The notes under the pieces are model-generated. The model saw only the letters and a program-made list of their open reading frames with translations. It was not told the origin of the DNA and ran no database searches. The translations under genes and the position numbers were made by a program. A stretch of 64,000 bases of DNA. Source: Gibbula magus (lineage: Eukaryota > Mollusca > Gastropoda > Trochida > Trochidae). Shown here piece by piece: positions 4,817 to 35,470 of this stretch. Every line of letters starts with the position of its first letter. Position 1 is the first letter of the stretch. The stretch covers positions 75,415,936-75,479,935 of the forward strand of contig OW388291.1 in the NCBI GenBank assembly GCA_936450465.1, written 5' to 3'.

Positions 4817-4913
4817 GCGCCTCGCCCTACCCCCACATAGCGCTGTCCGATCTCTACTACGTCCTGGTTAACGGATACCGGATGGAGAAAACCAGCAACT
4901 GCTCGGAGGAACT
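4817..4913 (+). CDS. Receptor tyrosine kinase, exon C (helix F to G)
   Basis: A 97 bp exon between tcatccccag and gtaagt, entering in phase 1 and leaving in phase 2. It encodes GASPYPHI, the conserved segment after the WSFG helix, then NGYRMEKTSNCSEEL, matching the GHRMxxPxNCxxE(L/M)Y segment of FGFR and RET kinases. The split codon CT|G reconstructs Leu and leads into YAIMLQCW of the last exon. It is too short to appear as an independent open frame and is defined by splice sites and homology. Confidence 0.93.
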
Positions 4914-6468
4914 GTAAGTATATAATAACTTACTTCATAATGGGTGGCATCTTCATGCCAAGGATCTCAGACATCAATTACGATGTTCTTCCTTTACGTC
5001 TTGAAATCAAGTCTAATTGCAATAATTTTAGTAATGGGTGGTTTCTCAATCTGTCATGGTTTTATCGCTATCGCACATTTTTTTGCCCCCCTTCAGATGT
5101 TTTTGATGAAAATAGGAATGGAATTAGGAGTTTTGGCAAGCACGTAACACTATTTGTCTGAAACATCTAAATAGCAGGTGGTTGTTTTCTATGAAATGAT
5201 AAATCGGTGTAATCTAATTTATTAACAAAGTTTTTCCTTGTCTAAATTTTGCGAATTCCATATGTTATTCATCAGAGGCCTGCTGTACACCAGAAAGAAA
5301 TGGTTTTAGTTAAGCATTGACGTTTACATCGAAAACGTCTCTATACAATACGCTTCTACTCCGGATAGGAGTTTGCCTCTAATTGTTTCTACTAGGTGAT
5401 TTCGGATTTTTTGCCGTGTAACAAACTAATTGTCTCACATTAGGCTCTTTTTTCCTACCTGAGATTCTTCAAAGTTAAAACACTTAAAGCACATAAGATT
5501 CAGACGGAAATCTCTTTAAGAGCTCAAGACTATGTTAATTGCATCATTTATCGGCTTTTGTTGAAGCACATGGAGCTTACGCTGACAGAATCTAATGCTT
5601 ATATACTTGTTTCAAAGAGGACAGCTTAATTTCGTAATCTTGTCCAGGATTAAGTTGAAATATAAATGTTAAGGATGCAATTAGTAACATTTAACTGTCA
5701 TTGTTTGGCATCAGTTGGGCACTGGCTAGACGGTTTGGTGGAGTGGGTCTCAGACTGCTATGGTGAATGTCAAAGAGGCCTGAACAAATGGGATCATTGC
5801 GAGTTAAGACTTGGTTAAATGCCTTTTAAAGTTTTATTTGACATATTTAGTATGTTGTTTAAAGCTGAATCATTGTCGATACTCTGATAGATAAAGATAG
5901 ATAATTATTATCAGTCATGTCAAACATGTCCATCCTCCTTAGGAACATACAGGCAATGATGTAATGAAGTTACTAAGTTAACTTTCACATTGCCTTCACT
6001 TACAGACAAGTAAATATTTGATAATAATCATAAGAAAACTGCAGTGAAGAGCTGAGGTTCTCATGCGTCATTTGAAGAATATGACCTAATCTGCCATAAG
6101 AATAACTTGCAATTGTTCTAAAAATATTAAAATAACCCATGTTCTTCTCCCCTAGCGAACCATCGTATTGTAATACAGTCGGACCAGATGTGCGATTAAG
6201 CGAATCACCATTTGCATAGAAATGTATAGAGAAGATTTGAAAGACTATCATCCGTATGGCCGGGTTTCCGGATATACGGGGTCCGGTTAAACGAGGTCTC
6301 ACTGTTTTCATTTAACAACGACAAACCGTCAAACCATGTTTAAGTGTACTGGTATACAATGTATGCTTAAAGTTATATGTAACTGTCCAAGAACCGTACA
6401 TGTAACATCACGGCATATTGCACTGCACTAAATGTTGAGTAATTTATTTGACACTGTTCCTCCCCCAG
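4914..6468. other. Kinase intron C-D
   Basis: A 1.55 kb phase-2 intron (GTAAGT ... CTCCCCCAG). Only short chance open frames on either strand; no recognisable repeat. Confidence 0.85.
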
Positions 6469-6787
6469 GTACGCCATCATGCTTCAGTGCTGGGCGGCGC
6501 TGCCTCAAGACCGCCCCTGCTTCACCCAGCTTAGGATGATGCTTGAGGAACTACTAGAACAAGACAGGAACTACCTGGTTCTGGAGAACATCAATGTTCC
6601 TCTGAATACCTCGGAGAACAGCAGCACTCCTTCATCTTTGGACGACATGTCTGCCCAACCTTCTGGCGCATCTTCCGGTATACTGATAGCGCCAATGACG
6701 AAGGAAGAACTTCGTGTCAATGTGTGTATCCATGGGAAATCTACAGACAGGTTGCTAAGGAAGTCTGAGAGTGATTCAAGTCCTTAG
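6469..6787 (+). CDS. Receptor tyrosine kinase, terminal exon
   Basis: The exon starts after a polypyrimidine acceptor (cctcccccag) and ends at TAG 6785-6787. It completes the kinase domain with YAIMLQCW and the conserved Arg of DRPCF (helix H-I), then LRMMLEELLEQDRNYL at the domain end. A Ser/Thr-rich tail of about 70 residues follows, without a transmembrane or PDZ-ligand signature I can name. With exons A-C it gives 273 residues of a receptor. The tyrosine in RNYLVL is placed like the C-terminal docking tyrosines of other receptors, but that role is inferred. Confidence 0.93.
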
Positions 6788-9700
6788 CAACAGTAGTGTG
6801 AAGTTGTGTGATAGTGCAACGACTCCTGGGTCGAATGTTTATATTGTTATGTACCATGTACAAATAATTCTTGAAATGATGAGAGGGCACGACGATGCTT
6901 GTCACACTGCCATCAGGCTCGGCAAGAGAATTAGGTCCACAAGACAACATGATTCCAAATGATTCAAGTGTCGAGGTCAAATCTAAATTCTGACGGAAAG
7001 TGTGGAACCTCTTTTATGGAACATGAAAACCTTAATCTAATCATTTCGATGTACCAACACGTGCCATCAGAAGAATGCGCTGACGATTAGTCATTGAAGA
7101 GTGTATGTATTTGTCCACGCCAGCACTACGTGCATACGTGCTTGAATGTTCGGGTAGACATGAGACTGTGTAAATAATTCCAGAGTCACCCTTGGTTACC
7201 TCAGAGGCTGACAAGAACCAACTGTATATAATGAGCATATTTATTGTTACAGTATTTATTGACGCCTGAAGCTCGTGGTTGTTTTTTATTCACTTCAGTG
7301 ATAAATTCTTGGGAATATGTCAGGATTGTTTGCACACAACACTAAAGCTGAAGGGATTCCTGGACTCTCCAGGACTCTACTAGACTCTACTGGACTCCGC
7401 TGGACTCTGCTGGAAGATGGACATATTTCCGTATGCGTTCTCAATGGTTGTGTATCTGCAGGAGTAACGAAACATCCAGTTGTTGTGACGATTTAGAACA
7501 GCCATGAGTCGGTTTAATTGATTACACATGAGACAGACCAGATGTGACGTTTTGAAGTGATCTTCAACCTGTGAGTGCCCACATACGTCACTTAATTGAA
7601 TAGATATACTGTTAATACAAAACCGGAAAGAGGGTTGAAATGTTTATTTCATATGTTCAACTTGTTCTTTTGATGTAATGAAGCTAATCTGATTGTGTGC
7701 CATACACGGGACATGTTCCCAAGAAGAAGTCTTCGCAATGCGTTGATGTATTATACCAGGGGCAGTGTCCAACCTGTCTCGACCATGTTGATTTTAACTT
7801 GTTTACACCACTAGTGCTTCATGTTGTTATTGTTTTCTTGTATCTTTTTTTATTGGTGCAAATCTGTTTTAATTTCTCTTAACGAGGAACCGGTTGATCC
7901 AGTCACTATATTTAGGAGAAAAGCTTATGTAGACACGACCGTCAGGAGAAGCTCAGGTCAAACTCTTTCAATGCAGGTAATTGACCATATAAGGGCATAA
8001 TGCAAGTTGAATATTTGTCAGAGCTCCGGGATGGTTTCTTTTGCAGATTACATTTTGTAAATCTGTAAGTGCAGAAGATATTATACCCAGTAGTTGTACT
8101 TACTGTTGGTCATCGCAGGAAAGTATTATTTTAATTTGGTATTGTTTGTATTTACAACACCGCTTACCATTCGTAGCTTTCAAACGTTATGACGTCATGG
8201 AGAAGAACGTTATGCTCAATGTACGGATGCCAAGAAAGCTAATATCACAGTCAATACATTTAATAACTTTTGGCTTTAACATTTCGTAAGGACATATATA
8301 AATATTACTAAATGAAGATTTTATTTGTAATGTCTGTTAATATAACGAAATCAGTTAGCTTGTACTTTGTACAACATACAGAAAACGTCATTATTACTGA
8401 TTTAAATATTGTGTAAATAGTTTCAGTATTACAGTTGTGTCAGTATTTTGATTCCAAAGCTAAAATTTATACTTTCAAATTTAATTGATTTTAACTCATT
8501 ATATGTAACCATTCCGTATAATCGATATCCTTTTTGGAGAAGTTCAGTGAAATGTCAAACTCAAATGTTTTGTGAATTTTAAAAGTTGATAAACGTGGAC
8601 CATAGGGTGTTGTCAATATTCTTACATCATTGATATCACGTTCATTATATACTTATACATCTATTTGCAGCATATTAAAATTGTCACGTTGCGTCATGAT
8701 AAATAAATAGTCACCATTCAAAGTAACGAACCAACATACTTTTACAAGGATACTTAAATGTATAATGTAAATCATACGTTGTAATGTGGATCATACATTT
8801 ATTAGAAAGTCTGGCGAAAGAATAATTCGCACGTGTTAATATCTATTGGATTATAAGTATACTTAATTGGAAAATATGAAGTGATGGTTGTATAAATGTA
8901 CAGCCATGTTCACAATTCCCTCCAGAAAATGAGTGTCTCTTTGATATATGTACATACTAGGGTTGCATATTTATGTGCTTTTCTTTCTTATTCCCTCCAG
9001 TAGAAAACTCTCTTTGAATACAGCAGTTCATTTAGTGAATATGATTATTATTACAATATTTGCAAGGTTTTCCCATGATTAAGTACACCAGATTTGGTAG
9101 ATAATAAACACATTTACAAAATTACTGCAGCATTCCTAATTGACTTTTATTTACTGTCAAATTTTATGGTCTTTATTGATAACAAATGAATTATGGCACT
9201 TTTTATTATCTACGAATAGAAGATTGACTTTTCAGGAAATGGCATTGCTTCTTGTGTGCTTTTTTGATCTTTAATAAATCATAAACATTGTATGAAGGTT
9301 GTATATCAAAGAGGATTTTGTACCTTTTTGTTACCGATAGTGAACATAAGGTGTAAAATATTCGGGATAAACTGTATATGTTGACTGGTGTTACCCACAT
9401 GTAGAACTGTTGAATAATTGAGCACTGTATGGCGATGATAGGGCCACACAATGCCATCATGACCTTATAAACAGTCTAATAAAAGTAATACACAATCACA
9501 TCATGTGTCACGTTTGTTTACTAGTACGGTATACCTGACGACCGGGTGTCACTGTACGAATTGTAGTGAAGGTGATCAGAGACTACCCTATCACACGTTA
9601 TAAATGCTATTATTTAACTTTTGTCGAAATTTACAATCATTCAATTTAATAAAGTGGCAATTTAAGGTGAAAGAAGTGAGTATTTTTTTAAACTTAACTA

Positions 9701-10276
9701 CATCAAACAAAAGACAAATTTGGGTTGGTAATATTTAATAGGGCATATATTTGCTGTGCATTAGACTGTTGCCCGATTTCACTGGAAACAAATTACTGTA
9801 TCATGATGTCTATGGCGATTGGAGATGAATATGCAAGTTGGAGGACATTGTTCTTAAATCAGCACATATATGGTATTTTGGCGCGTCTCAAAGACAAATT
9901 AGATATTAAAAGAAACACTTAATGTCACATAAAGAACAGACAAGGGATCGGGAATTTGAGGCTAGTGGTGCCGTAGAAACAATTGGGACAGAAGTTTGAG
10001 ATTGTGAAGATTATTGACTGACCTCAACCTTCCGCATCATTTGTAACCATACATACATATTTGATACATGCAAATAAGTAAATAGTTATTTTCATTCATT
10101 GATCTGTAAAATGATGGTATTTTATACATTCACTTCTAAAATGTACTTTCGTTTACAAAAAAAACCACGTTATATAACTTTATTACACATGACCTAACCA
10201 TAAAACGTTGACACGGATTGGAACTCACAAAACTCAAAACTCAGTCATTTTGATAATTAATCTACAGTATAGCCTA
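6788..10276. other. 3' flank of the kinase gene, no further gene seen
   Basis: The 3' UTR must start here, but no clearly placed poly(A) signal decides its end (an AATAAA at 9478-9483 is far away and may be chance). The stretch is AT-rich with short open frames on both strands, none with family resemblance. It contains a short 10 bp tandem repeat and a ~100 bp piece similar to the kinase intron B-C. Confidence 0.5.
7361..7413 (+). repeat. 10 bp tandem repeat (TGGACTCTRC)
   Basis: Five consecutive 10-base units of the form TGGACTCTRC with one or two substitutions each, in the probable 3' UTR of the kinase gene. The period is not a multiple of three and no frame is kept. Confidence 0.85.
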
Positions 10277-10285
10277 TTCCAAACT
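10277..10285. repeat. Left target-site duplication of the Foldback element
   Basis: TTCCAAACT directly precedes the first base of the inverted terminus and recurs at 23113-23121, directly after the last base. A 9 bp exact direct repeat abutting inverted termini is the mark of transposition; 9 bp is the size known for Drosophila Foldback and typical of Mutator-like elements. Confidence 0.9.
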
Positions 10286-13265
10286 GGCAGGCTGAAGTTA
10301 GCAAGTTATTAGTTATTAGTTATTCGTTATTCGAATAACGAATAACTAACTGGTTAGTTATTCGTTATTCGAATAACGAATAACTAACTGGTTAGTTATT
10401 CGTTATTCAAATAATGAATAACTAACTGGTTAGTTATTCACTATTCGAATAATGAATAACTAACTGGTTAGTTATTCGTTTTTCGAATATCATGCTGGCT
10501 GCTTATTCAATCTTCAGAGTTGAACAAAGAAGTAAATATAGATATATATTAAGGGTGGAAACTGACAATATGGGGTGGGGAACCTCGTTCATCGATTACA
10601 TTCAGTAAGCACTGGCTAGCTATTCAATATTCGAATAATGAATAACTAACTGGTTAGTTATTCGTTTTTCGAATAACGAATAACTAACTGGTTAGTTATT
10701 CGTTTTTCGAATATCATGCTGGCTGCTTATTCATTCTTCAGAGTTGAACAAAGAAGTAAATATAGATATATATTAAGGGTGGAAACTGACAATATGGGGT
10801 GGGGAACCTCGTTCATCGATTACATTCAGTAAGCACTGGCTAGCTATTCAATATTCGAATAATGAATAACTAACTGGTTAGTTATTCGTTTTTCGAATAA
10901 CGAATAACTAACTGGTTAGTTATTCGTTTTTCGAATATCATGCTGGCTGCTTATTCATTCTTCAGAGTTGAACAAAGAAGTAAATATAGATATATATAAA
11001 GGGTGGAAACTGACAATATGGGTTGGGCAACCTCGTTCATCGATTACATTCAGTAATCACTGGCTAGCTATTCAATATTCGAATAATGAATAACTAACTG
11101 GTTAGTTATTCGTTTATCGAATAACGAATAACTAACTGGTTAGTTATTCGTTTTTCGAATATCATGCTGGCTGCTTATTCATTCTTCAGAGTTGAACAAA
11201 GAAGTAAATATAGATATATATTAAGGGTGGAAACTGACAATATGGGGTATGGGAACCTCGTTCATCGATTACATTCAGTAAGCACTGGCTAGCTATTCAA
11301 TATTCGAATAATGAATAACTAACTGGTTAGTTATTCGTTTTTCGAATATCATGCTGGCTGCTTATTCATTCTTAAGAGTTGAACAAAGAAGTAAATATAG
11401 ATATATATTAAGGGTGGAAACTGACAATATGGGGTGGGGAACCTCGTTCATCGATTACATTCAGTAAGCACTGGCTAGCTATTCAATATTCGAATAATGA
11501 ATAACTAACTGGTTAGTTATTCGTTTTTCGAATAACGAATAACTAACTGGTTAGTTATTCGTTTTTCGAATATCATGCTGGCTGCTTATTCATTCTTAAG
11601 AGTTGAACAAAGAAGTAAATATAGATATATATTAAGGGTGGAAACTGACAATATGGGGTGGGGAACCTCGTTCATCGATTACATTCAGTAAGCACTGGCT
11701 AGCTATTCAATATTCGAATAATGAATAACTAACTGGTTAGTTATTCGTTTTTCGAATAACGAATAACTAACTGGTTAGTTATTCGTTTTTCGAATATCAT
11801 GCTGGCTGCTTATTCATTCTTCAGAGTTGAACATAGAAGTAAATATAGATATATATTAAGGGTGGAAACTGACAATATGGGGTGGGGAACCTCCTTCATC
11901 GATTACATTCAGTAAGCACTGGCTAGCTATTCAATATTCGAATAATGAATAACTAACTGGTTAGTTATTCGTTTATCGAATAACGAATAACTAACTGGTT
12001 AGTTATTCGTTTTTCGAATATCATGCTGGCTGCTTATTCATTCTTCAGAGTTGAACAAAGAAGTAAATATAGATATATATAAAGGGTGGAAACTGACAAT
12101 ATGGGTTGGGCAACCTCTTTCATCGATTACATTCAGTAATCACTGGCTAGCTATTCAATATTCGAATAATGAATAACTAACTGGTTAGTTATTCGTTTAT
12201 CGAATAACGAATAACTAACTGGTTAGTTATTCGTTTTTCGAATATCATGCTGGCTGCTTATTCATTCTTCAGAATTGAACAAAGAAGTAAATATAGATAT
12301 ATATTAAGGGTGGAAACTGACAATATGGGGTGGGGAACCTCGTTCATCCATTACATTCAGTAAGCACTGGCTAGCTATTCAATATTCGAATAATGAATAA
12401 CTAACTGGTTAGTTATTCGTTTTTCGTTTTTCGAATAACTAACTGGTTAGTTATTCGTTTTTCGAATATCATGCTGGCTGCTTATTCATTCTTCAGAGTT
12501 GAACAAAGAAGTAAATATAGATATATATTAAGGGTGGAAACTGACAATATGGGGTGGGGAACCTCGTTCATCCATTACATTCAGTAAGCACTGGCTAGCT
12601 ATTCATTATTCGAATAATGAATAAGTAACTGGTTAGTTATTCGTTTTTCGTTTTTCGAATAACTAACTGGTTAGTTATTCGTTTTTCGAATATCATGCTG
12701 GCTGCTTATTCATTCTTCAGAGTTGAACAAAGAAGTAAATATAGATATATATTAAGGGTGGAAACTGACAATATGGGGTGGGGAACCTCGTTCATCGATT
12801 ACATTCAGTAAGCACTGGCTAGCTATTCAATATTCGAATAATGAATAACTAACTGGTTAGTTATTCGTTTTTCGAATAACGAATAACTAACTGGTTAGTT
12901 ATTCGTTTTTCGAATATCATGCTGGCTGCTTATTCATTCTTCAGAGTTGAACAAAGAAGTAAATATAGATATATATTAAGGGTGGAAACTGACAATATGG
13001 GGTGGGGAACCTCGTTCATCGATTACATTCAGTAAGCACTGGCTTGCTATTCAATATTCGAATAATGAATAACTATTTGGTTAGTTATTCGTTTTTCGAA
13101 TAACGAATAACTAACTGGTTAGTTATTCGTTTTTCGAATATCATGCTGGCTGCTTATTCATTCTTAAGAGTTGAACAAAGAAGTAAATATAGATATATAT
13201 ATTAAGGGTGGAAACTGACAATATGGGGTGGGGAACCTCGTTCATCGATTACATTCAGTAAGCAC
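10286..13265 (+). repeat. Left satellite arm, 13 units of 224/186 bp
   Basis: Units repeat every 224-225 bp (anchors 'cattcagtaa' near 10825, 11049 and 11274) or 186 bp when one 38 bp subunit is missing. Each unit has two or one copies of a 38 bp AT-rich palindromic subunit (GAATAACTAAC-TG-GTTAGTTATTC) and a unique part with 'tgctggctgcttattc' and 'gggtggaaactgac'. The outer edge changes to TTATTAG/TTATTCG repeats that run into the terminal inverted repeat. Thirteen copies of the unique part can be counted. Non-coding. Confidence 0.93.
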
Positions 13266-14199
13266 TTGGTCTGTGAAGTTAACGAATTATTTACACTTCC
13301 TTATGTGTTTTTCGAAATGTGAACCTAGCGAAAACAGTTTTTAGCAAATTGAATTTATAATTGTTGTTAGTTCATTAATCAATATTAGATACTGTGAACG
13401 ATATTAACGTTCCTATATTGTGTATAGATATTCTTATACCAGACAGTCAATAACGTAGTAGCTGAACAGAGCTCTTCACGATGTACAGTAGCCGTTTAAA
13501 AATTGTTTTGTTTAAATCTGATTCAATACAATAAATGTAACACTTACTAAAACGTTCATGTGAACTATAATAATGATGTATAAAGGATGAAGAACGTGCT
13601 CCGCGAACATAATTATAGGTCAGTTTGAATCCGTCTGTAAGACTGTGAAGTTTGTTACTTTTACGATAATGTCGATTTATGCATAGAATACGTCACTGGC
13701 ACCCGTTCAGAATACTTAGGTTTATATTGAATCAGCATATATTAGCTTTGTCTCTAGGGTTCATCTTAGCTATAATAAAGTTTTAGTTATGGCCTCGAAC
13801 GCCCGTTGTGTCATAGGTTAATCTGAATAATTTGCTGAGAGTGTGAAGTAAACTACTTATTCGAAATAGGCGATTTATGCATGGGCGTCCGTTGAAAAAT
13901 ATAGGTTCATATTTGAATTAGCACATGTTAGGTCTTTCGTTGCGGTGTATCTAAGCTTTGATACTGCTTTATATACGGCCGTAAACGTGCATTGTGGGCT
14001 CATTTTGGTCAATCTGTATAGGCAGGGACCTTAAATAGAGGGACTCGTCTCTTCTGCTCCTTTCATGATCATTTTTACTGAGCGATGCAATTTGACAAAT
14101 GCTCGTCGCGCTTCAACGCACAAGCGACTGGGTGCTTGCATAAGCGCTTATTTTGTTATCGCAGTATATTGTTGTTACCAGTTGACGTCTCCGAGTCTT

Positions 14200-14456
14200 G
14201 CCGGTGTAAGACAGAACATGTACCCGCTTTGAAAACACACCGGCGGGTATAATTTCAACGTTAAATTATGACTCAGGGTCACTTTTCAACACCTTGGGTG
14301 TATTTTCAAAGTTGAATAATTATCCGTCTGGGTAATCATTTAACGTTGACAAAAGACCCGAGGCGTTGAAAAGTGACTCCGGGTCATTATTCAACGTTGA
14401 AAAAGTACCCGCCAGGTATGTTTTCAACGCGGGTATATTTTCAATCTTACACCGGC
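14200..14456. mobile_element. 257 bp nested TIR element
   Basis: Termini GCCGGTGTAAGA and TCTTACACCGGC are perfect inverted repeats. The interior is a run of imperfect inverted copies of 'caacgttgaaaa' alternating with 'acccgggt'-like segments, so single strands could fold into many hairpins. No target duplication can be read with confidence. It lies inside the 1.5 kb TIR transposon, i.e. a third nesting level. Confidence 0.65.
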
Positions 14457-14934
14457 TCGCTCGTGCGGCAATCGGCAATCTTTGTATAGTCAAGAAACAC
14501 TAGTGTAACCTCCCTTTGAGACTGTTGATTGTTGTAATGATATATGAAATATACCACTGTGAGAAAAATGTATTTATTACCCATATATGTATATTCTTGA
14601 CGTCACCAAACCTTGCTAAGTGACTCGTTCTCAGACTACTTTTACGTTAATCAAATCAAATAAAATGTTTAATAAAGAAATTATTATACTCGAAAGTGTG
14701 CTATATGACTTTTACAAAATTTGTGCAAATATGACACAGTTCATCGGGTAATAATCTCTATATTTATATGATACTATATGTACTTTACAAATAATGTTAG
14801 GTTTCCTAGTGCTTTGGAATACTTGATGGTATCCACATGTAGGCCTATTATTCTGTTATTTTTTGAGTTGATTACTGTTTATTGTCGTGAGAAAAAAACA
14901 AACAGTAATTATCTATTATTTAAACGGTTGCTAA

Positions 14935-15400
14935 ATGAATATTTTAGAAATTATTGATCTAGGTTAAAGTAAAAGTGTAATTTAGATTCCCCTCGAACCA
15001 TTACATATATCATATACGCTCATTAGAGACAAGATGGCGGACTGACACGCTATTTTAACTGCAAAGTACGAGCGTAGTACATGCTGACTACTTTCCCCTA
15101 AAATACCAGCTTGACGCAGATGCATCAGAAAACTATTCATCTTTCGCTAAATTAATATTTTAGAATTTATTGTCTTCGGTGAAAGTAAAAGTTTTGAACC
15201 CCTCTCGAACCTTTACACATATAATCAAAAAACCGTACAGACAAGATGGCGGACTGACTCGCTATTTTAACCGCATATAATATTTTAGAATTTATTGTCT
15301 CCGGTAAAAGTAAAAGTATTGGACCCCCCTCGAACCATTACACATATTATCTAAACTCCTTACAGACAAGATGGCGGATTGATTAACTGGATATACTAGT
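14935..15400 (+). repeat. Three ~130-200 bp tandem units with CAAGATGGCGG
   Basis: Units begin with 'aatattttagaa' at about 14938, 15154 and 15279; each has 'ctcgaacc', 'ttacacata' and ACAAGATGGCGG. CAAGATGGCGG matches the known core of the YY1 zinc-finger binding site. The function within the transposon is unknown; YY1 binding is an inference from the motif only. Confidence 0.7.
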
Positions 15401-15679
15401 GTGCTACGCAAGTAATTAGCGCAATACGGGCGCCAAGTCAAGATGTGCGTTGGACCATGACGAGGGAAGCTCCGCGAGCGAATTGATTAGTTTCTAATCC
15501 CTCTATATAAGGTCCCTGATATAGGTTACTGAGAGTGTGAAGTTAATAACTTATTCATTATTGATGATGTATGCATAGAAAACGTTACTGGCACCCGTTT
15601 CAGAATACATAGGTATATAAGCACATGTTAGGTCTGTCTCTGGGGTATATCACAGCTACTACAATGCTACGGATAAATA

Positions 15680-16600
15680 CATGGGTATGCATGCGTACAT
15701 CCGATGCCTACGTGCATGTGTGCGTAAGAGGATGTACGTGCGTACAATTATGTACCTGTGTACGCTTACGTACTTGCATAAGGTTACTTAAGTTGAGTGT
15801 ATGCGTACATGCGTGTGTGCTTCCATAAGTATGTTCATACATGCAGTCGTGCTTGCCTACGTATTCATTCGTTTGTACTTGCATGCATGCATATGTAAGC
15901 ATACGTACTTGCATACACATACATTCATGCCTGCATAAGGAAAAATACTTGCGTAAGAAAGTAAATGTTTGTGCGTGCATTTAAAAGACTATACATGTGC
16001 GTGCGTGTATAGTCACATGCGTACTCATATACGGACATACATACGCTTACGGACATAAGTGCATATGTGCATGCATGTACGTTTGCATTCGTGGATGCAT
16101 GCATATGCACAGACTGGTGTAATTATGCTCGTGAGTGAGTGCATGCTTTCGATCAGTGTACAGAAGTGTGTGTGCATGCATGTTTGCTAGCTTAGATATT
16201 TGCGAAGATGCTTGTTTATGTTGTTTGAATTAAACATACGTCCTTGCGTGCATCGACGCATCACTTTGATTCTGTCAATAGGTATATGCTTGTCGGCATG
16301 CATGCGTATTTAATTTTGAAAGTATGTATGCAACCACATACGTACGTGAGCACACTCGCATCACAGCACACACACATAAATGCATATACAGACAATGACG
16401 TATGCGTACCGCGTACCTGTGCATATGCACGTATGCACATTTGTGTACTATGCACTTAATCAATCGCATATGCGTAAGCACTTGCGAAAACATACATACG
16501 TACGTATGTGTACGCATTAATTCGTGGCAATGCGTATCTGAATCGCAAACCGGCGTGAATAATTCATTAACTGTACGTGAGTAAGTACCCATGCGTAAAG
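15680..16600. repeat. Alternating purine-pyrimidine tract (TACGTGCATACG-like)
   Basis: About 900 bases are made of shuffled TAC/GCA/TGT/ACG words so that purines and pyrimidines alternate over long runs (for example gcatgcatgcatatg, acatacgtacgtatg). Such sequence is prone to Z-DNA and cruciforms. The open frames across it on both strands (up to 124 codons, rich in Cys, His, Thr, Val and Tyr) are by-products of the composition and are not called as genes. Confidence 0.75.
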
Positions 16601-16869
16601 AAATAACCATATGTTTTGTTATTCCTTCACCCACTCCAGTGCGTGCCAATTGTGCAATCTACTCGTGAACTTGTATCAACTTGTTCGTATCTTATTCCTG
16701 TGGTGTCGTGTAATACGTGTACAGTTTTCTTGTGTCACGATAAAGGCAAGACTAGGTTGAGCATGTCAAGCAATTGGCACGCAATTCAGGCAATTGACAA
16801 CATTCGTGAGTATTTTTCCGTGCTAATGACACGAATATCATCGAACCAGTAAAAGCACTTCAATGATGT

Positions 16870-17683
16870 TTCATTTTCAGTACTCAGTCTCTTTTTCAAA
16901 GTCTTCTTCAATAACATGGCCGAACCAATCAGAAATGAGCATGCATCACCCCCGTATACATAGGTGTCCCAGGAATGGACAACATATAAGAATTTGTAGA
17001 TATAAGCTTAAAGGGCCATAAGTACAATGCTGTGGAATCCCTTGTATTTGTAGTAGAAGGACCCAACACTGGCCGGCTTCTTCATGGCAACATATTTTCC
17101 ATTCAAAGCTCCCCAGCATTTGTGGTAGTTCCACCTCGAACTGTAACCATGAAACCCTTTATATTTTCCTGTGGGGTTCTGGGGCACCTTAGTACCTCCA
17201 CCTTGAACACATCAATGAAGACTCTGCAAACCCCGGGTAGAAACTTGCAGACTCTGCAAACAATACTTCTGAAGTTGTATTGTAGACTTGTGTGGCTATC
17301 ACAAGTGGCAAGGAAGCGGAATGTGTCTGCTAGTTTTAGTCCAACCTCAAGTGGTTCTCTCACGCAAGTCTTTTTCTTCTCCAAGTGAGGAGTTAACTTA
17401 TAAAAAATTCCTGGGTTAAAGGTCCTACGGAGAACCATTTTGTTTCTCCACGGAGAAGTTCAGTGAGTAACTGTTCATAGTATCCGAAAGAGTGTCTTTG
17501 GTCAATAATTCTCAAACCAAAATGTTCTAGCTTTCCTATTCCGAGGTGAGGTTGCAACATCTTCTTGCTTCCTGTATTATTTCTTCTTCTCCAAGAAGAA
17601 GAAGTGTAGCCGATGTCAGATACATGAGCCTTTTTCTTCTCTTCAATAATGGCGATATCTTGTGAGTTGTTCATGGTGTTCAC
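16870..17683 (-). pseudogene. Broken PIF/Harbinger transposase (HARBI1-like)
   Basis: Read right to left in three frames: an N-terminal part (17683-17393) ending in YYEQLLTELLRGE; then the helix-turn-helix part (17400-17140) with VGLKLADTFRFLATCDSHTSL, the family's LxLRFLATGDS motif; then the start of the DDE nuclease (17130-17011) with WGALNGKYVAMKKP and YYKYKGFHSIVLMAL. The family has GALDGKH at this point: the first catalytic Asp is Asn here (codon 17103-17101). A stop follows MAL, after which AYIYKFLYV continues in another frame. At least three frame disruptions and the lost catalytic residue mean it is dead. It lies in the Foldback loop; its own TIRs were not found. Confidence 0.82.
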
Positions 17684-17716
17684 TTTGTGAAAGTAGAGGA
17701 TGAACTAATTTAAGAT

Positions 17717-17758
17717 AGGGTACTGCCTTTATAGATACTTCCAATGCAGGCAGTACCG
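17717..17758. repeat. Hairpin GGTACTGCC / GGCAGTACC
   Basis: Perfect inverted repeat GGTACTGCCT ... AGGCAGTACC with a 19-21 base loop, just upstream of the Harbinger reading frame. It could be the subterminal end of that element, but a matching copy on the other side was not found. Confidence 0.6.
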
Positions 17759-17789
17759 TACACCAAGCGTTAATAAAAAAAAAAGGTCA

Positions 17790-18190
17790 TAATCTTGACA
17801 AGCATGCATGATTTAGTCATGCCTGTGCCTGCATTTGCACATAATCCGTACCAAAACGCAACTTCATCGGATTATAGACGCAATATATGCGTGCACAGAA
17901 CCCAACATAGTCGTGGCACTTCGTGTACAATTTTACGAGTCAAATGTGCAACATATACATCAGGTGTAATGTCAGGCGAATAATGCGGAGGTGTGCGCAT
18001 TGTTATGTAAACAAATTATATAATCAATGCTTCACGCATTGGCACACACTGAGGTCTTGAAATGCGGATGGAAAGTTCGTGCAAGTGTAAACGCACTTTT
18101 ATACACGTATGCACAAACATATGCTTACGCACTCATGTGCTTATATTTGCAAACACATATGTGTACGAACCTACAGTTGGTATACAAGCA
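17790..18190. other. Loop sequence, second alternating purine-pyrimidine stretch
   Basis: Contains 'gcatgcatg', 'tatatgcgtgcac' and 'catatgtgtacg'-type words like the tract at 15680-16600. The simplest reading is that the Harbinger element was inserted into one originally continuous tract. No gene seen. Confidence 0.5.
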
Positions 18191-21100
18191 TGCACATTAG
18201 TTATTCGTTATTCGAAAAACGAATAACTAACCAGTTAGTTATTCATTATTCGAATATTGAATAGCTAGCCAGTGCTTACTGAATGTAATCGATGAACGAG
18301 GTTCCCCACCCCATATTGTCAGTTTCCACCCTTAATATATATCTATATTTACTTCTTTGTTCAACTCTGAAGAATGAATAAGCAGCCAGCATGATATTCG
18401 AAAAACGAATAACTAACCAGTTAGTTATTCGTTATTCGAAAAACGAATAACTAACCAGTTAGTTATTCATTATTCGAATATTGAATAGCTAGCCAGTGCT
18501 TACTGAATGTAATGGATGAACGAGGTTCCCCACCCCATATTGTCAGTTTCCACCCTTAATATATATCTATATTTACTTCTTTGTTCAACTCTGAAGAATG
18601 AATAAGCAGCCAGCATGATATTCGAAAAACGAATAACTAACCAGTTAGTTATTCGTTATTCGAAAATCGAATAACTAACCAGTTAGTTATTCATTATTCG
18701 AATATTGAATAGCTAGCCAGTGCTTACTGAATGTAATGGATGAACGAGGTTCCCCACCCCATATTGTCAGTTTCCACCCTTAATATATATCTATATTTAC
18801 TTCTTTGTTCAATTCTGAAGAATGAATAAGCAGCCAGCATGATATTCGAAAAACGAATAACTAACCAGTTAGTTATTCGTTATTCGATAAACGAATAACT
18901 AACCAGTTAGTTATTCATTATTCGAATATTGAATAGCTAGCCAGTGATTACTGAATGTAATCGATGAACGAGGTTGCCCAACCCATATTGTCAGTTTCCA
19001 CCCTTTATATATATCTATATTTACTTCTTTGTTCAACTCTGAAGAATGAATAAGCAGCCAGCATGATATTCGAAAAACGAATAACTAACCAGTTAGTTAT
19101 TCGTTATTCGAAAAACGAATAACTAACCAGTTAGTTATTCATTATTCGAATATTGAATAGCTAGCCAGTGATTACTGAATGTAATCGATGAACGAAGTTC
19201 CCCACCCCATATTGTCAGTTTCCACCCTTAATATATATCTATATTTACTTCTTTGTTCAACTCTGAAGAATGAATAAGCAGCCAGCATGATATTCGAAAA
19301 ACGAATAACTAACCAGTTAGTTATTCATTATTCGAATATTGAATAGCTAGCCAGTGCTTACTGAATGTAATCGATGAACGAGGTTCCCCACCCCATATTG
19401 TCAGTTTCCACCCTTAATATATATCTATATTTACTTCATTGTTCAACTTTGAAGAATGAATAAGCAGCCAGCATGATATTCGAAAAACGAATAACTAACC
19501 AGTTAGTTATTCGTTATTCGATAAACGAATAACTAACCAGTTAGTTATTCATTATTCGAATATTGAATAGCTAGCCAGTGCTTACTGAATGTAATCGATG
19601 AACGAGGTTGCCCAACCCATATTGTCAGTTTCCAACCTTTATATATATCTATATTTACTTCTTTGTTCAACTCTGAAGAATGAATAAGCAGCCAGCATGA
19701 TATTCGAAAAACGAATAACTAACCAGTTAGTTATTCGTTATTCGAAAAACGAATAACTAACCAGTTAGTTATTCATTATTCGAATATTGAATAGCTAGCC
19801 AGTGCTTACTGAATGTAATCGATGAACGAGGTTCCCCACCCCATATTGTCAGTTTCCACCCTTAATATATATCTATATTTACTTCTTTGTTCAACTCTGA
19901 AGAATGAATAAGCAGCCAGCATGATATTCGAAAAACGAATAACTAACCAGTTAGTTATTCGTTATTCGAAAAACGAATAACTAACCAGTTACTTATTCAT
20001 TATTCGAATAATGAATAGCTAGCCAGTGCTTACTGAATGTAATGGATGAACGAGGTTCCCCGCCCCATATTGTCAGTTTCCACCCTTAATATATATCTAT
20101 ATTTACTTCTTTGTTCAACTCTGAAGAATGAATAAGCAGCCAGCATGATATTCGAAAAACGAATAACTAACCAGATAGTTATTCGAGAAACGAAAAACGA
20201 ATAACTAACCAGTTAGTTATTCATTATTCGAATATTGAATAGCTAGCCAGTGATTACTGAATGTAATCGATGAACGAGGTTGCCCAACCCATATTGTCAG
20301 TTTCCACCCTTTCTATATATTTATATTTACTTCTTTGTTCAACTCTGAAGAATGAATAAGCAGCCAGCATGATATTCGAAAAACGAATAACTAACCAGTT
20401 AGTTATTCGTTATTCGAAAAACGAATAACTAACCAGTTAGTTATTCATTATTCGAATATTGAATAGCTAGCCAGTGATTACTGAATGTAATCGATGAACG
20501 AAGTTCCCCACCCCATATTGTCAGTTTCCACCCTTAATATATATCTATATTTACTTCTTTGTTCAACTCTGAAGAATGAATAAGCAGCCAGCATGATATT
20601 CGAAAAACGAATAACTAACCAGTTAGTTATTCGTTATTCGATAAACGAATAACTAACCAGTTAGTTATTCATTATTCGAATATTGAATAGCTAGCCAGTG
20701 ATTACTGAATGTAATCGATGAACGAGGTTGCCCAACCCATATTGTCAGTTTCCACCCTTTATATATATCTATATTTACTTCTTTGTTCAACTCTGAAGAA
20801 TGAATAAGCAGCCAGCATGATATTCGAAAAACGAATAACTAACCAGTTAGTTATTCGTTATTCGAAAAACGAATAACTAACCAGTTAGTTATTCATTATT
20901 CGAATATTGAATAGCTAGCCAGTGATTACTGAATGTAATCGATGAACGAAGTTCCCCACCCCATATTGTCAGTTTCCACCCTTAATATATATCTATATTT
21001 ACTTCTTTGTTCAACTCTGAAGAATGAATAAGCAGCCAGCATGATATTCGAAAAACGAATAACTAACCAGTTAGTTATTCATTATTCGAATATTGAATAG

Positions 21101-23112
21101 CTAGCCAGTGCTTACTGAATGTAATCGATGAACGAGGTTCCCCACCCCATATTGTCAGTTTCCACCCTTAATATATATCTATATTTACTTCTTTGTTCAA
21201 CTCTGAAGAATGAATAAGCAGCCAGCATGATATTCGAAAAACGAATAACTAACCAGTTAGTTATTCGTTATTCGATAAACGAATAACTAACCAGTTAGTT
21301 ATTCATTATTCGAATATTGAATAGCTAGCCAGTGATTACTGAATGTAATCGATGAACGAGGTTGCCCAACCCATATTGTCAGTTTCCACCCTTTATATAT
21401 ATCTATATTTACTTCTTTGTTCAACTCTGAAGAATGAATAAGCAGCCAGCATGATATTCGAAAAACGAATAACTAACCAGTTAGTTATTCGTTATTCGAA
21501 AAACGAATAACTAACCAGTTAGTTATTCATTATTCGAATATTGAATAGCTAGCCAGTGATTACTGAATGTAATCGATGAACGAAGTTCCCCACCCCATAT
21601 TGTCAGTTTCCACCCTTAATATATATCTATATTTACTTCTTTGTTCAACTCTGAAGAATGAATAAGCAGCCAGCATGATATTCGAAAAACGAATAACTAA
21701 CCAGTTAGTTATTCATTATTCGAATATTGAATAGCTAGCCAGTGCTTACTGAATGTAATCGATGAACGAGGTTTCCCACCCCATATTGTCAGTTTCCACC
21801 CTTAATATATATCTATATTTACTTCTTTGTTCAACTCTGAAGAATGAATAAGCAGCCAGCATGATATTCGAAAAACGAATAACTAACCAGTTAGTTATTC
21901 GAAAAACGAAAAACGAATAACTAACCAGTTACTTATTCATTATTCGAATAATGAATAGCTAGCCAGTGCTTACTGAATGTAATGGATGAACGAGGTTCCC
22001 CACCCCATATTGTCAGTTTCCACCCTTAATATATATCTATATTTACTTCTTTGTTCAACTCTGAAGAATGAATAAGCAGCCAGCATGATATTCGAAAAAC
22101 GAATAACTAACCAGTTAGTTATTCGAAAAACGAAAAACGAATAACTAACCAGTTAGTTATTCATTATTCGAATATTGAATAGCTAGCCAGTGCTTACTGA
22201 ATGTAATCGATGAACGAGGTTGCCCAACCCATATTGTCAGTTTCCACCCTTTATATATATCTATATTTACTTCTTTGTTCAACTCTGAAGAATGAATAAT
22301 CAGCCAGCATGATATTCGAAAAACGAATAACTAACCAGTTAGTTATTCGTTATTCGAAAAACGAATAACTAACCAGTTAGTTATTCATTATTCGAATATT
22401 GAATAGCTAGCCAGTGATTACTGAATGTAATCGATGAACGAAGTTTCCCACCCCATATTGTCAGTTTCCACCCTTAATATATATATATATTTACTTCTTT
22501 GTTCAACTCTGAAGAATGAATAAGCAGCCAGCATGATATTCGAAAAACGAATAACTAACCAGTTAGTTATTCGTTATTCGAAAAACGAATAACTAACCAG
22601 TTAGTTATTCATTATTCGAATATTGAATAGCTAGCCAGTGCTTACTGAATGTAATCGATGAACGAAGTTCCCCACCCCATATTGTCAGTTTCCACCCTTA
22701 ATATATATCTATATTTACTTCTTTGTTCAACTCTGAAGAATGAATAAGCAGCCAGCATGATATTCGAAAAACGAATAACTAACCAGTTAGTTATTCGTTA
22801 TTCGAAAATCGAATAACTAACCAGTTAGTTATTCATTATTCGAATATTGAATAGCTAGCCAGTGCTTAGTGAATGTAACCGATGAACGAGGTTCCCCACC
22901 CCATATTGTCAGTTTCCACCCTTAATATATATCTATATTTACTTCTTTGTTCAACTCTGAAGAATGAATAAGCAGCCAGCATGATATTCGAAAAACGAAT
23001 AACCAGCCAGTTAGTTATTCATTATTCGAATAATGAATAACTAACCAGTTAGTTATTCGTTATTCGAATAACGAATAACTAATAACTAATAACTAACTAA
23101 CTTCAGCCTGCC
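18190..23112 (-). repeat. Right satellite arm, 22 units, inverted
   Basis: The same satellite as the left arm, on the opposite strand. Twenty-two copies of the unique part ('gtcagtttccaccctt') are counted. Units are 224 bp, or 186 bp when one palindromic subunit is missing. Variants GAGGTTCCCC (G), GAGGTTGCCCAAC (N) and GAAGTTCCCC (A) recur as N-A-G, with the G copy being the short one, at least at 20.7-21.3 kb and 21.3-21.9 kb: a ~634 bp higher-order repeat. The outer edge turns into TTAGTTATTAG repeats and then the terminal inverted repeat. Confidence 0.93.
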
Positions 23113-23121
23113 TTCCAAACT
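23113..23121. repeat. Right target-site duplication of the Foldback element
   Basis: Exact copy of TTCCAAACT found at 10277-10285, immediately outside the last base of the element. Confidence 0.9.
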
Positions 23122-23660
23122 GGTCTATATAAAATACACGAAGATTTTCTGCAAAAGTTGCAAAACCTTTATGTTTTAAGAATTAATCCGAAACCTGCGC
23201 AAGCCAGATTGTTACAAACCGTTTCAGGTTTTCACAAAAACTCTCCAACGGGAGGCGAAATAGCAAACATGAGTGACATGACGGCGACCTACTCTACTGG
23301 AACAGTTAGACATAGTGTTCTGAAATTCAACATAGTATTCTTTTTTAGACTACTTTTTGTACAGTTAATATTGGATTCCCTGTTCGACATTCTTACTTTT
23401 GTAGACTATCTTTGACAAACAAACAAAACATTCAGACGTTAAATGTAGCATGCATTTGTCATCAGCATCTAGAGATATGGAGGGTGGTAACACTCTGTTT
23501 GTTGACGTCGCCTTGAATGTTTGTGACCGCGAATTATCTTGTGTACACATTTGTTCACTTAGCTATGTTGATAGATTGTAAAGAAAGAATCAACGTTTGT
23601 AGATACACCGCTATCACGATATTTGTTCATTTTTAAAAAAAATGTATTTCGACGCTCTAC
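23122..23660. other. Intergenic, nothing recognised
   Basis: Unique AT-rich sequence with two overlapping short open frames on opposite strands (85 and 61 codons) that show no domain, signal peptide or splice logic. Confidence 0.5.
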
Positions 23661-23664
23661 TTAA

Positions 23665-24074
23665 AGGCGCTGTAACACACCGTCCTTGCTTAAATGTATA
23701 CATAATATATAGTGATCTCAAGAAAAAAGTGTTAACAATTATGGCTGATTATTACCCCTTAATCAATAAAAAGAGTCACAAAACGTTCATGGTTTTGGTT
23801 AAGCCATATGAGTCTATTTCCCTTCGAGCGGACAATGTAAGGTGTTCACATTGAGCTGGCCTCTCGAAGGGAGTTCAAGTGATCTAACTGATATAGCGAT
23901 ACCAAAACACCAAGAGAAGAGTTTTAGATATGGCAGATTCGAGAATGATGGAATGGTCAATCATATTTCTGTCTGAAATCTCAAAATCGCATAAGACCTA
24001 ACAAAATTTAACAACTTTAATAATAAATGGCAAATTTGAGAAAAATGATATGCAAAAAACCTGCTACAGCGCCT
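23665..24074 (-). mobile_element. TTAA-flanked TIR element, copy 1 (410 bp)
   Basis: TTAA at 23661-23664 and 24075-24078 flank termini AGGCGCTGTAACAC and CTGCTACAGCGCCT. It aligns in reverse orientation with copies at 27466 and 39107: shared 'tttctcaaattt', 'ggtatcgctayatcag', and a central near-palindrome around GTGTTCACATT. TTAA duplications are the mark of piggyBac-type transposition; no coding capacity, so non-autonomous. Confidence 0.8.
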
Positions 24075-24078
24075 TTAA

Positions 24079-27000
24079 TACGTCATATACGTTTACTCGT
24101 CTCCAGTCTACAAGAAGCGTATGTTTTAAATTTATCAATTAAACAGTTCATCTTTCAACGTGTTACATGAATATTGTGTACCCGAATTTCGATAATTCTT
24201 GCATTGTTTTCATATGATAATTATATAATTATCGAGCCTGGTTATGCAAATTGTATTTAGGTCTTCAAGACAAAGTCATGAATACCTGTTGTTATTATCG
24301 TGTTGTTGTTTTTTAGTCATTACTTGTACCGAATTTTGTCCGCAGGATTCCCGCTTAACGGCTCGAGCAATTTACATGTTGATAGCTTGTGGCTTAAACT
24401 GGTTTTGTGTCGAGCTACCTTTTGGATTTTCGACTTCTTTCTTGAGTTATCTCCCCTTTAAGTTAAAATTCAAACCTTAACAGCTCAAGAACTAATAGAT
24501 ACTAAGAGATATTTTCACAAAACTTTCACCAATATGTAGACAACAACATTCCCCATCGAGGTCTATAGCGCTGTCGGCCATAGTTTTTTTGCTATTTTGA
24601 AAAAACTGAAAATGTTATGCAATTTCGCAGTTTTGAGGGTATGCGTCTTCAAAAACCTTCTCCTAAATAAGGACAATGCATACAGCTATGTGTGATAGGT
24701 CATCTGAAAGCTAATTGAATTGAGAACAAAGTTATTTCGGCATTTTTTTAAATTTTGACCTTGAATTCGAGTAATCTGCCCTTCAATATGGACCTCTTTT
24801 AAAAAGGCGTTTTTCGGCTGCATTTTCAAAGGGTTATGACTCTGTTACTAATGATCGTATGTCACAATAACTTATTGTCATCTCTTACTAATGACTAGTG
24901 TAACAATTCCATAACATATCATTGTGATATAAAGGTTGATAGTTTGCGCACAATTTGGACATTTTCCCAAAATATTTAAAAAAATAGGATTTGGAGATTT
25001 TTCGAACGGTATAGTCTTTGGAGAATATTTTTATCGCAAACCACTGAAGATACCAGCACCTTTATTAGTTTCGTTTGAAGGAGTAACGTCATTTATTAAA
25101 GACAATAATTTTCAAGAACGTATCTGTCATAGTGTATGTGTAAGTCATAGAAAATTGTCATTTTTCGAAAATCGCCATTTTCAGCAAAGTTGAAAGGGTC
25201 ATTACTGCTTAACGTTTTACGCTATTGAAATTTTACTCAAATCTACGTATGCACAATTTCAAGTCCAACAACTTGTCTGTTGTTAACTTTTATCAACAAG
25301 TTGATAGTTAAGCCTCGAACATCGCAAACGTTGTCTAGGGGTCCGAAATTGAGCATTTTTTAGTATTTTCCTGAATATTCAGAAGAACATAACGCATTAC
25401 ATATGTATGCAATCTAAATGATGGTTACATCTACTTAAGTGGAAATTAAAGCACAACATTTTCTAAACTCCACTTTAGTATGAAAATATTAACCATTTTG
25501 TCTTAATCATGAGAAAGATCATGTAGGGGTCCATTAATAAGCGATTGTTCCATTTTCAGAGGGTCATTGTCTTTGGAGAATTTTTGTAAAATAACTAGTG
25601 AAGATAGAGACATGTTTGATAGCTCATTTTAAAGGTCAAGCAGAAATCTTGAAGAAATATTGGCAATCCTAGTTGTATTTGTCATTTGTATTGTTTTAAG
25701 GTAACAAGGTAATTGACTGTCCAAGAAATAGGAGGTTACCGAAATAATACAAACATTCATATTATCAAACTTATCTCAAAAACGAGTAAAGTTAATGAAT
25801 GTATTCAATCATAAACGAATATTATAATCAATGTAACTAAAGGCAAGTTGATAAAAGTGTCATGTTAAATGCTGCGGTTAATTGAAACAACATACCCAAG
25901 TTGATGTAACAGAATAGTGTCAATCAGGGTGACTGGCATTTAGTTTCATCTTTTACCAAGACAACAGTATACTTTACATTTGAATCTCATTCTATACTTC
26001 CAGTTCTCATGTCTTGGTATCATTGCGTCAAGTTCGACCTAGTTCCGCAGTCACCGTAGTGTGAAGGGTCAAGAAGAGTGAAGTAAATGTGAAGAGACTC
26101 AGACAATGACACTTATCTCAATTGGATATTGTCACCAATATAACGGCGACTAGTGGCTAGATGCAAATGTCCGCAAAATATTGTGATTATGCGTTGCAGT
26201 GAAACCTTCGAACTGGAAATAGAGAATCACTCAAATTGAAACTTGTTTTGAAATTGATGTTTTTAAACGGGTCCACATCATCAACTCTAGTCCTGATCTG
26301 TGACTGTATTTATATTTAGGAGCCTTGTTCAGAGTTTATGTTAATCACTTAGCTAGTTAAAATATATTAAATGTTAATGTAAATGTTGAAATAAATTGCA
26401 AGCTTAAGAAATAAAACGAGAAATGATCAAGATTTAGCATTCCAATGTATTTTAAAATACCATTTCACCTTACATAAATACGTAAAATCTAAGCCGTTCC
26501 CCAGTTGAAGGGGAAACTACGTATTGAAAGGATACGCGTCATCATCCGTGTAGTCTTGGCGCGTGTACAAGGACTCACGAATTGGTTCATTCCAATCGTA
26601 TGTAGGTTGGTTCCGTGCCACACGTGATGATTACATGATATTTCGAAGTCATAACCCTTTTTAAATTCTCCACAAACGAACCAAATCGTACTTAAAATAC
26701 ATTTACGCAGATCATCAATGTAACAAAAAAAGGCATTTCCACTCTATCAGCGGGTCCCATCACAGGTTCACAGCACGCCATATTCCACGGTGGTGAAAAT
26801 CTTCTACAGCATCGCATAAAATATGTCTCTGAAAAATCGCTCAAAGTAACTTTTGACCGAGTGCCAGGCGAGGTGTTTTATTTTGATTCCTTTTGCACAA
26901 CAAGGGTATGCTTATGACGCAGGTAGGGTCTCATATTCCTCAGCTTATCAAAATAAAGAACAACGCATCCAAACACCGACCTAACAGTCCGCTGGTGGAA

Positions 27001-27461
27001 CAGCGAAGGTAAATACCTCTCCGAGACTGAACGTGAATACAACTACACAGCTGCTGCTTGTCTATAGCAGCTACAGGGCTCTAATTTCACTTTGATTGCA
27101 GGATTAAATCATGTACATTTCAGTGGTGCGTATTACAGGTGTCTGATGTAGTTTCTCAGAGATGTACGACTCAGATGCGAGTGTCAGGACAGAGATAGTG
27201 AGTCTAATATGTATGTGAGCTCTGCATGTTCCTGGTGTGAGGTCTGCGGTTTTATAGTCGGATATTGAAGTATCTGATTGCGCCATTACATCAAGTGGAC
27301 ATGATATATACATTCTATATTTCTATTTCCGGTTTTTTAAATGATCTCTTGGATAAACCTAACGGGAATGTTCGAGTTAACTAATTAAATAACTTACTTA
27401 ACTTAACTTTTTTTAAATAAATTTTCTGGTTTAAGTTATCGTTTGGGTTGTAAGACAATTG
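24079..27461. other. Intergenic with degenerate long-period repeats
   Basis: No gene supported. Between about 24.6 and 25.65 kb the phrase 'cattttca-(n)-gagggtcatt' followed by 'cttcaaaaa/ctttggagaa' recurs near 24622, 24822, 25180 and 25549, with similar sequence after it, suggesting an old tandem repeat. From 26.45 to 27.3 kb the GC content rises, but no open frame, splice pair or RNA fold was convincing. Confidence 0.45.
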
Positions 27462-27465
27462 TTAA

Positions 27466-28157
27466 AGGCGCTGTAGCACGTCTTTGGCATATTATGTTTT
27501 CTCAAATTTACTATTATTTATTATTAAAGTTTATACAATATATTGGTACGTTAATGGGTACAAACATCTCATTACACGACCCGATAAGCCGTATCCATAG
27601 AAAACGGCTATCCGTATTCGAAATAATGGTGCGATGTATAAAGCGACAGTTGTGTGGGACTCTTCAGTGTGAAAGGTAGATTTAGGTCTCATGGGAATTT
27701 GACAGTTCAGACAGCAAGCATCCTCGGTTACCCAGGGTTTTATATATGCTTCGTTACTCTCCACTATATCACCCATAGGAAACTTCATCAGTGAAATCTG
27801 TACTCAAATTACCCGCCCTTGGGTGATATAGTGGAGAGAAACGGAGCACACATATAACCCTGGGAAACCGCTGATGGACAGCAAGATGGTTGACCATTCC
27901 ATCATTCTGCCATATTTAAAACTCTACTCTTAGTGTTTAGGTATCGCTACATCAGTCAGATCACTCGAACTACCTTCGAGCGGCCATCTTAATGTGAACA
28001 CATTAAAATGGCCGCTCGATGGGAAATGGTTGAACCGAACATTCGTTTGAGAACTCTTTCTATTGATTTAGGAGTATTATTCTGACATTAGTAACACTTA
28101 TTTATATTTGTGTGAATGCACTTTATTTCAGTAATAAAATCGTGCTACGGCGCCTTT
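27466..28157 (+). mobile_element. TTAA-flanked TIR element, copy 2 (692 bp with nested insert)
   Basis: TTAA at 27462-27465 and 28158-28161; termini AGGCGCTGTAGCACG and CGTGCTACGGCGCCT. Same family and orientation as the 39107 copy. Two extra segments explain its length: about 100 bp near 27560-27660 that copy 3 lacks, and a complete 158 bp nested element with its duplication. The interior has the near-palindrome CGAGCGGCCATCTTAATGTG / CACATTAAAATGGCCGCTCG at 27976-28019. Confidence 0.8.
27719..27876. mobile_element. Nested 158 bp element with 57 bp TIRs and 9 bp duplication
   Basis: Starts CATCCTCGGTTACCCAGGG and ends with its inverse; the two ~57 bp arms, reaching to TATATCACCCA, match at roughly 80 percent or more. 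The direct repeat GACAGCAAG flanks it (27710-27718 and 27877-27885). The two sister copies of the host element have the uninterrupted site (GACAGCAAGATG and GACAGAAATATG), so insertion and duplication are shown by comparison. Long TIRs and a 9 bp duplication suggest a Mutator-type MITE. Confidence 0.85.
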
Positions 28158-28161
28158 TTAA

Positions 28162-30057: not shown

Positions 30058-30059
30058 TA

Positions 30060-31320: not shown

Positions 31321-31388
31321 AAAACGTTATGATAACAAGTAGAAAGGAGTGTGCTAGTACTAGCATTCATGTTATAACTGTACCACAT

Positions 31389-31468
31389 TTCTCGCTTCTA
31401 GTACACTTTCGTACCACGGACTTTCTCCTTCTCGCTTCTAGTACACTTTCGTACCACGGACTTTCTCC
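31389..31468. repeat. Exact 40 bp direct duplication
   Basis: The 40-base unit beginning TTCTCGCTTCTAGTACACTT and ending GGACTTTCTCC occurs twice head to tail without mismatch, so the duplication is recent or an assembly effect. Confidence 0.85.
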
Positions 31469-35468: not shown

Positions 35469-35470
35469 TA

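Follow-up and report, generated by a model that had tools for sequence, protein, structure and literature searches.

Drosophila FB and FB-NOF transposons have inverted arms made of tandem repeats, 9-bp target-site duplications and a variable middle. Tetris, a foldback element of Drosophila virilis, is described as having arms with ∼220-bp tandem repeats, duplications of 8-10 bp, no coding capacity and a variable middle, and its repeat is also reported in long arrays of up to 66 copies. The placement of Tetris in Mutator relies on its duplications and on how foldback elements had been viewed before (PMC4079207). In Tribolium castaneum, the 9.5-kb Rehavkus-1_TC is described as carrying a 164-bp satellite in its inverted termini, mostly as five and eight monomers (PMC10218199). 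The Tm1 Mutator/Foldback elements of Meloidogyne are reported to have composite inverted repeats with tandem motifs and mostly 9-bp duplications; some copies encode a Phantom-type transposase and others are without transposase (PMC3169594). Here we describe an element of 12,827 bp (without its duplications) at positions 10286-23112 of a 64-kb stretch of DNA (the window, GC 35.8%). We read it, with a probability of about 0.85, as a single insertion of a Foldback-type DNA transposon.

The element shares with FB and FB-NOF the three features mentioned above, but the repeat units differ and Pfam reported no NOF domain here. Its likeness to Tetris, which is one of architecture by description and not of sequence alignment, covers the long tandem-repeat inverted arms, the unit length (∼220 bp against 224 bp here), the duplication (8-10 bp against 9 bp) and the lack of an intact transposase (PMC4079207). 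As in Tetris, the repeat unit and the terminal domain have a stretch in common (37 bp in Tetris, ∼30 bp here; PMC4079207). The inverted repeats are longer in the present element (2,981 and 4,916 bp, against up to 1,735 bp in the complete copies described for Tetris), whereas the outer domain, up to 866 bp in Tetris, is ∼100 bp at the left end and ∼30 bp at the right end (PMC4079207). Rehavkus-1_TC likewise has a satellite in inverted termini, and 9-bp duplications are listed for Rehavkus (PMC10218199, PMC6446971). However, Rehavkus is described with a PHD-finger transposase, and none was found in the present element (PMC10218199, PMC6446971), whose arms also hold more units (13 and 22) than those of Rehavkus-1_TC (PMC10218199). 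Tm1 is similar in its tandem-motif inverted arms, its mostly 9-bp duplications and its copies without transposase, and differs in its motif of ∼14 bp and in the size of the elements described (1,080 and 2,593 bp; PMC3169594).

Termini and target-site duplication

The two ends of the element and the duplication outside them are as follows.

10277..10285, no strand: left target-site duplication TTCCAAACT (exact match, comparison of termini)
10286..10386, + strand: left terminal domain, consisting of the tip GGCAGGCTGAAGTTAG followed by 38-bp palindromic subunits
23035..23112, - strand: right terminal inverted repeat of 78 bp with two mismatches to the left end; on its inner side it extends into the outermost satellite unit
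23113..23121, no strand: right target-site duplication TTCCAAACT (exact match, comparison of termini)

The inverted termini are alike over 78 bp with two mismatches (positions 17 and 18 from the tip); when compared over 120 bp, they differ at positions 17, 18, 79, 92, 107, 109 and 120. The 12-bp tip GGCAGGCTGAAG occurs window-wide only at the two ends of the element, and 0/35 satellite units carry it. Immediately outside these termini, TTCCAAACT stands as an exact direct repeat at 10277-10285 and 23113-23121. These are its only occurrences on the + strand of the window; on the - strand it is found once, at 55233.

With the termini fixed by the inverted repeat, we tried duplication lengths of 1-12 bp and observed an exact match at 9 (and, trivially, at 1). 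As the right flank and the tip of the element both begin with GG, the direct match can be extended to 11 bases (TTCCAAACTGG). We rejected an 11-bp duplication, since it leaves asymmetrical termini and symmetry is obtained only with a 9-bp cut.

For one pre-set pair of sites, the chance of a 9-bp identity calculated from base composition is p^9 = 7.7e-6, and 13/200,000 random pairs within the window had equal 9-mers. As a control set we used all inverted pairs of 12-bp words lying 0.2-20 kb apart in the window (n=64,638). An exact 9-bp direct repeat on the outside was found for only one of these 64,638 pairs, namely the element's own termini. Of the control pairs, 64,331 lie inside the element, as is expected from its own arms, and are non-independent.

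Satellite arms

Both arms consist of one satellite, placed in opposite orientation.

10387..13266, + strand: left satellite arm, 13 units (12 of 224-229 bp, one of 186 bp), from BLAST of one unit
18197..23082, - strand: right satellite arm, 22 units (18 of 224 bp, one of 219 bp, three of 186 bp) with two 38-bp subunits at the inner end

Counted to the tips, the left arm spans 10286-13266 (2,981 bp, 13 units, + orientation) and the right arm 18197-23112 (4,916 bp, 22 units, - orientation). Thus, the two arms are unequal. BLAST with one unit gave 36 rows longer than 100 bp, all within 10286-23112: the 13 + units on the left together with one partial row, which was not counted as a unit, and the 22 - units on the right. 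Unit edges were placed by hand from these rows. Over both arms, 31/35 units measure 219-229 bp and the other 4/35 measure 186 bp (one on the left, three on the right).

The 224-bp unit contains 38-bp palindromic subunits, the 34-bp core of which, TTAGTTATTCGTTATTCGAATAACGAATAACTAA, is a perfect palindrome. Sites with up to six substitutions from this core number 69 in the window, and 69/69 lie within the element. The unit and the terminal domain have 29/30 bp in common.

On average, units differ from each other by 3.3% in the left arm, by 3.7% in the right arm and by 3.4% when compared between the arms. Units are therefore as alike between the arms as within them, and some pairs are identical across the arms (for example, the left and right units L10/R05 and L09/R20). 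Judged from the sequences, this equal divergence would fit exchange or conversion between the arms; it would also fit arms that share a recent origin and have exchanged nothing. Along the two arms, unit types do not follow a significantly colinear order (longest run compared with that in 2,000 permutations at four thresholds, P = 0.87, 1.00, 0.40 and 0.06). An offset of 13 came closest, with nine unit pairs differing by 2.5% on average (raw value).

The longest ungapped complementary stretch of the arms is 1,852 nt (97%), and the longest gapped inverted match is 2,454 bp (97.6%). A multi-kilobase duplex of the arms is therefore predicted to be possible. The palindromic 38-bp subunits would form local hairpins in competition with it.

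An earlier note on this DNA had claimed the exact 9-bp duplication beside inverted termini, a terminal match of 54 bp with two mismatches, and oppositely oriented arms made of one 224-bp satellite. All three are confirmed here, and the terminal match reaches 78 bp with the same mismatch count. Of the multi-kilobase duplex that it had also foreseen, the long complementary stretches stand, and the local hairpins qualify it.

As a separate observation, the arms show no CpG depletion, with an observed/expected ratio of 1.25 in both, compared with 1.04 in the interior and 0.73 and 0.95 in the 5-kb flanks.

Interior and surroundings

Between the arms lies a stretch with the following content.

13267..18196, no strand: interior, 4,930 bp, no intact gene found (open frames, Pfam)
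13640..14022, + strand: two diverged copies of a ∼190-bp repeat, with a third from ∼15520, past the nested element
14023..15518, no strand: probable nested DNA element with 21-bp inverted tips CAGGGACCTTAAATAGAGGGA (95% complementary)
15660..16600 (limits by eye) and ∼17800-18196, no strand: cryptically simple TGCATACGTAC-like sequence
16981..17615, - strand: broken PIF/Harbinger transposase (HARBI1-like, PF13359 family) with frame changes and stops (tblastn, frame-joined protein search)

When the interior was searched in six full frames, no domain passed its Pfam cut-off. With matches considered up to E = 1, just two sub-threshold ones appeared, to NT5C (E 0.0097) and to HTH_Tnp_4 (E 0.1), and we set them aside as chance. 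Seven single interior frames, including the Harbinger pieces, gave nothing up to E = 1. When the Harbinger frames were joined, on the other hand, the query had 44 protein matches (best E 6.5e-50), several of them named HARBI1 and with PF13359. Five of these proteins, used in tblastn on the raw window without frame joining, located 16981-17615 in two frames with E down to 2.1e-45. The HARBI1-like DDE transposase typical of PIF/Harbinger is thus present as a broken interior copy, although Pfam itself reported no such domain. Since Harbinger elements make 3-bp target duplications, this remnant is probably a passenger in the element. DNA transposons, including Drosophila FB4, are reported to be able to carry foreign sequence (PMC8277862).

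The TGCATACGTAC-like simple sequence flanks the Harbinger remnant on both sides. The stretch 14023-15518 is a probable second, nested DNA element. Its tips begin with CAGGGACC, the repeat flanking it is imperfect (TATAGG in common), and it contains an 84-nt inverted repeat (80% complementary) and ∼125-bp repeats. The earlier note overlooked both the Harbinger remnant and this probable nested element.

We also compared the ∼190-bp repeat with the terminus of the large element. The best + strand score was 25, which was reached by dinucleotide shuffles in 17/200 cases for the left 60 bp and 22/200 for the right 60 bp. With a 34-bp terminus the same score was reached in 3/200 (left) and 8/200 (right) shuffles, and on the - strand the counts were 156-182/200. 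A possible origin of this repeat from the terminus was not used in our reading.

For the flanks, Pfam was run on three + frames of ∼1-10277 and 23122-37523 and three - frames of 301-10276 and 23122-33021. The only matches were to two overlapping protein kinase families in one + strand stretch, a kinase coding stretch with its best part at ∼4145-4441 (PF07714, E 9.8e-43), ∼5.8 kb to the left of the element. An open frame of 433 amino acids at 54806-56107 (+ strand) is pantetheinase/biotinidase-like and matches solved pantetheinases. Its alignment with three solved pantetheinase chains begins at their residues 48-68, which makes a further exon upstream likely. Among the best 120 of its 259 protein matches, the top named ones are from molluscs (Haliotis, Patella; 48-49% identity), with amphioxus (49-50%) slightly lower in the list; the DNA is thus probably, but not firmly, molluscan. 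A second satellite at 45385-47586 has 50 copies of a 44-bp unit (96% matches). Rfam had 0 matches in the window at gathering score. When IMG/VR was searched by exact pattern, the tip, the core of the unit and the palindrome each had 0 matches, a result of little weight as this database holds viral contigs and near records may be omitted.

Assignment, mechanism and meaning

Two structural marks of a Foldback element are found at this locus: long terminal inverted repeats built of tandem repeats, and a target-site duplication directly outside symmetrical termini. The duplication of 9 bp also falls in the range of the Mutator/Rehavkus group (8-11 bp, often 9), the lengths listed being 8-11 bp for MULEs and 9 bp for Rehavkus (PMC6446971). 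The G/C-rich tip resembles those reported for arthropod MULEs, which mostly begin with conserved G/C bases (PMC13359780). The element is best read as non-autonomous, and it was probably moved in trans by a Mutator/Rehavkus-type transposase; taken alone, this assignment is reasonably well favoured, with less confidence than the foldback insertion itself. The earlier note had placed the element with FB and NOF. The insertion with satellite arms and a 9-bp duplication holds; membership of FB/NOF does not follow from it. Pfam reported no MULE or NOF domain in this copy.

Several points weigh against our interpretation. No transposase family was reported at the Pfam cut-off in the six interior frames, with matches considered up to E = 1, and the sole recognisable transposase is that of PIF/Harbinger, whose usual 3-bp duplication does not fit. 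A single copy was seen, within the 64-kb window. Merlin elements make duplications of 8-9 bp, so 9 bp fits Merlin also. The unit order is not significantly colinear, and it is therefore from the divergence that inter-arm exchange is argued; a recent common origin of both arms would also account for it. Finally, the known range of Rehavkus is given as insects and annelids only (PMC6446971).

The alternative that survives best keeps the foldback insertion and changes the mobiliser: the foldback form would have arisen in Merlin, a P/Galileo-like or another superfamily with 8-9 bp duplications, the likeness to FB being convergent. We consider this rather unlikely. The probability of 0.85 refers to the foldback insertion, a part that this alternative shares with our reading, so the odds of the two overlap. 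The absence of a MULE domain from the present copy (Pfam, six interior frames) would suit such a mobiliser. Target duplications, however, are 7 bp in Galileo and 8 bp in P and hAT elements, and the 9 bp found here does not fit Galileo or the P superfamily. It also speaks for this alternative that the foldback form may arise in separate lineages, Galileo being placed in the P superfamily (PMC4079207, PMC3688188). On the other hand, Rehavkus and several MULE groups are listed with 9 bp (PMC6446971), which is also the commonest length in Tm1 (PMC3169594) and lies within the 8-10 bp of Tetris (PMC4079207).

It is very improbable that the whole element belongs to PIF/Harbinger, which would make the dead transposase its own and the length of its duplication unusual. 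The HARBI1-like coding remnant does lie inside, on the - strand near the right arm. But a 3-bp duplication would be expected and an exact 9 bp was found; the remnant is broken, yet the termini and the duplication are nearly intact, and it sits amid other interior debris. Helentron-type satellite-carrying elements are without inverted termini and without target duplication, and this candidate was rejected as both are present here. Such Helentron-type elements are listed for oyster (PMC7492417). Hardly credible is a reading without any transposon, in which a resident satellite array was duplicated in inverted orientation, or the assembly is at fault, and the 9-bp end repeat arose by chance: it can be argued that satellite turnover yields inverted arrays and unequal arms, and that the arms, seen in a single copy, may be misassembled, but the same tip, carried by 0/35 satellite units, stands at both ends directly beside an exact 9-bp repeat (p^9 = 7.7e-6).

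Returning to the Foldback-type insertion, from the matching termini and the 9-bp duplication, which are observed, we infer cut-and-paste by a transposase acting in trans. This enzyme, most likely of the Mutator/Rehavkus group, would recognise the GGCAGGCTGAAG tips, and the element would have moved as one unit and been joined to a 9-bp staggered cut, leaving TTCCAAACT on both sides. The repeated palindromic subunits are perhaps extra binding sites. In Galileo, transposase binding sites are reported within the tandem repeats of the arms (PMC3688188), and by analogy the satellite here may persist because it is retained as a source of additional sites. The 224-bp unit, with 29/30 bp in common with the terminal domain, probably arose next to the tips and was then amplified by unequal exchange. 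Exchange or conversion may keep the arms, which are equally diverged, alike. The interior would be an assortment of passengers, the dead PIF/Harbinger transposase among them. As a tentative proposal, in which our confidence is below even, a lophotrochozoan foldback family may serve as a satellite nursery that homogenises itself. In its arms a 224-bp satellite would grow from 34-bp palindromes that resemble the terminal domain, and the arms would copy units from each other. Arrays of whole kilobases would then travel to new sites within one transposon, together with Harbinger and other passengers.

The earlier note had suggested that a satellite array has moved, or been built, as a transposon. 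A satellite-armed insertion is indeed present, but it is not without precedent (Tetris, Rehavkus-1_TC). The kind of element is already known from flies, beetles and nematodes; the present one is notable for its arm length and probable host group. When foldback or Mutator was searched for together with bivalve, gastropod or Haliotis, the literature showed no such mollusc element. For the clam Donax trunculus, two putative miniature inverted-repeat transposable elements (MITEs) are mentioned in a source that cites a title on tandem repeat-containing MITEs in the clam (PMC5139131); tandem repeats in mollusc inverted-repeat elements are therefore not new as such. A few elements (Tetris, Rehavkus-1_TC, Tm1, FB) tie cut-and-paste transposons to the way in which satellite DNA arises and spreads, and the present one, probably molluscan and with long satellite arms, joins them. 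Together with the host genome, it would make testable both the descent of genomic satellites from such arms and the exchange of units between opposed arms.

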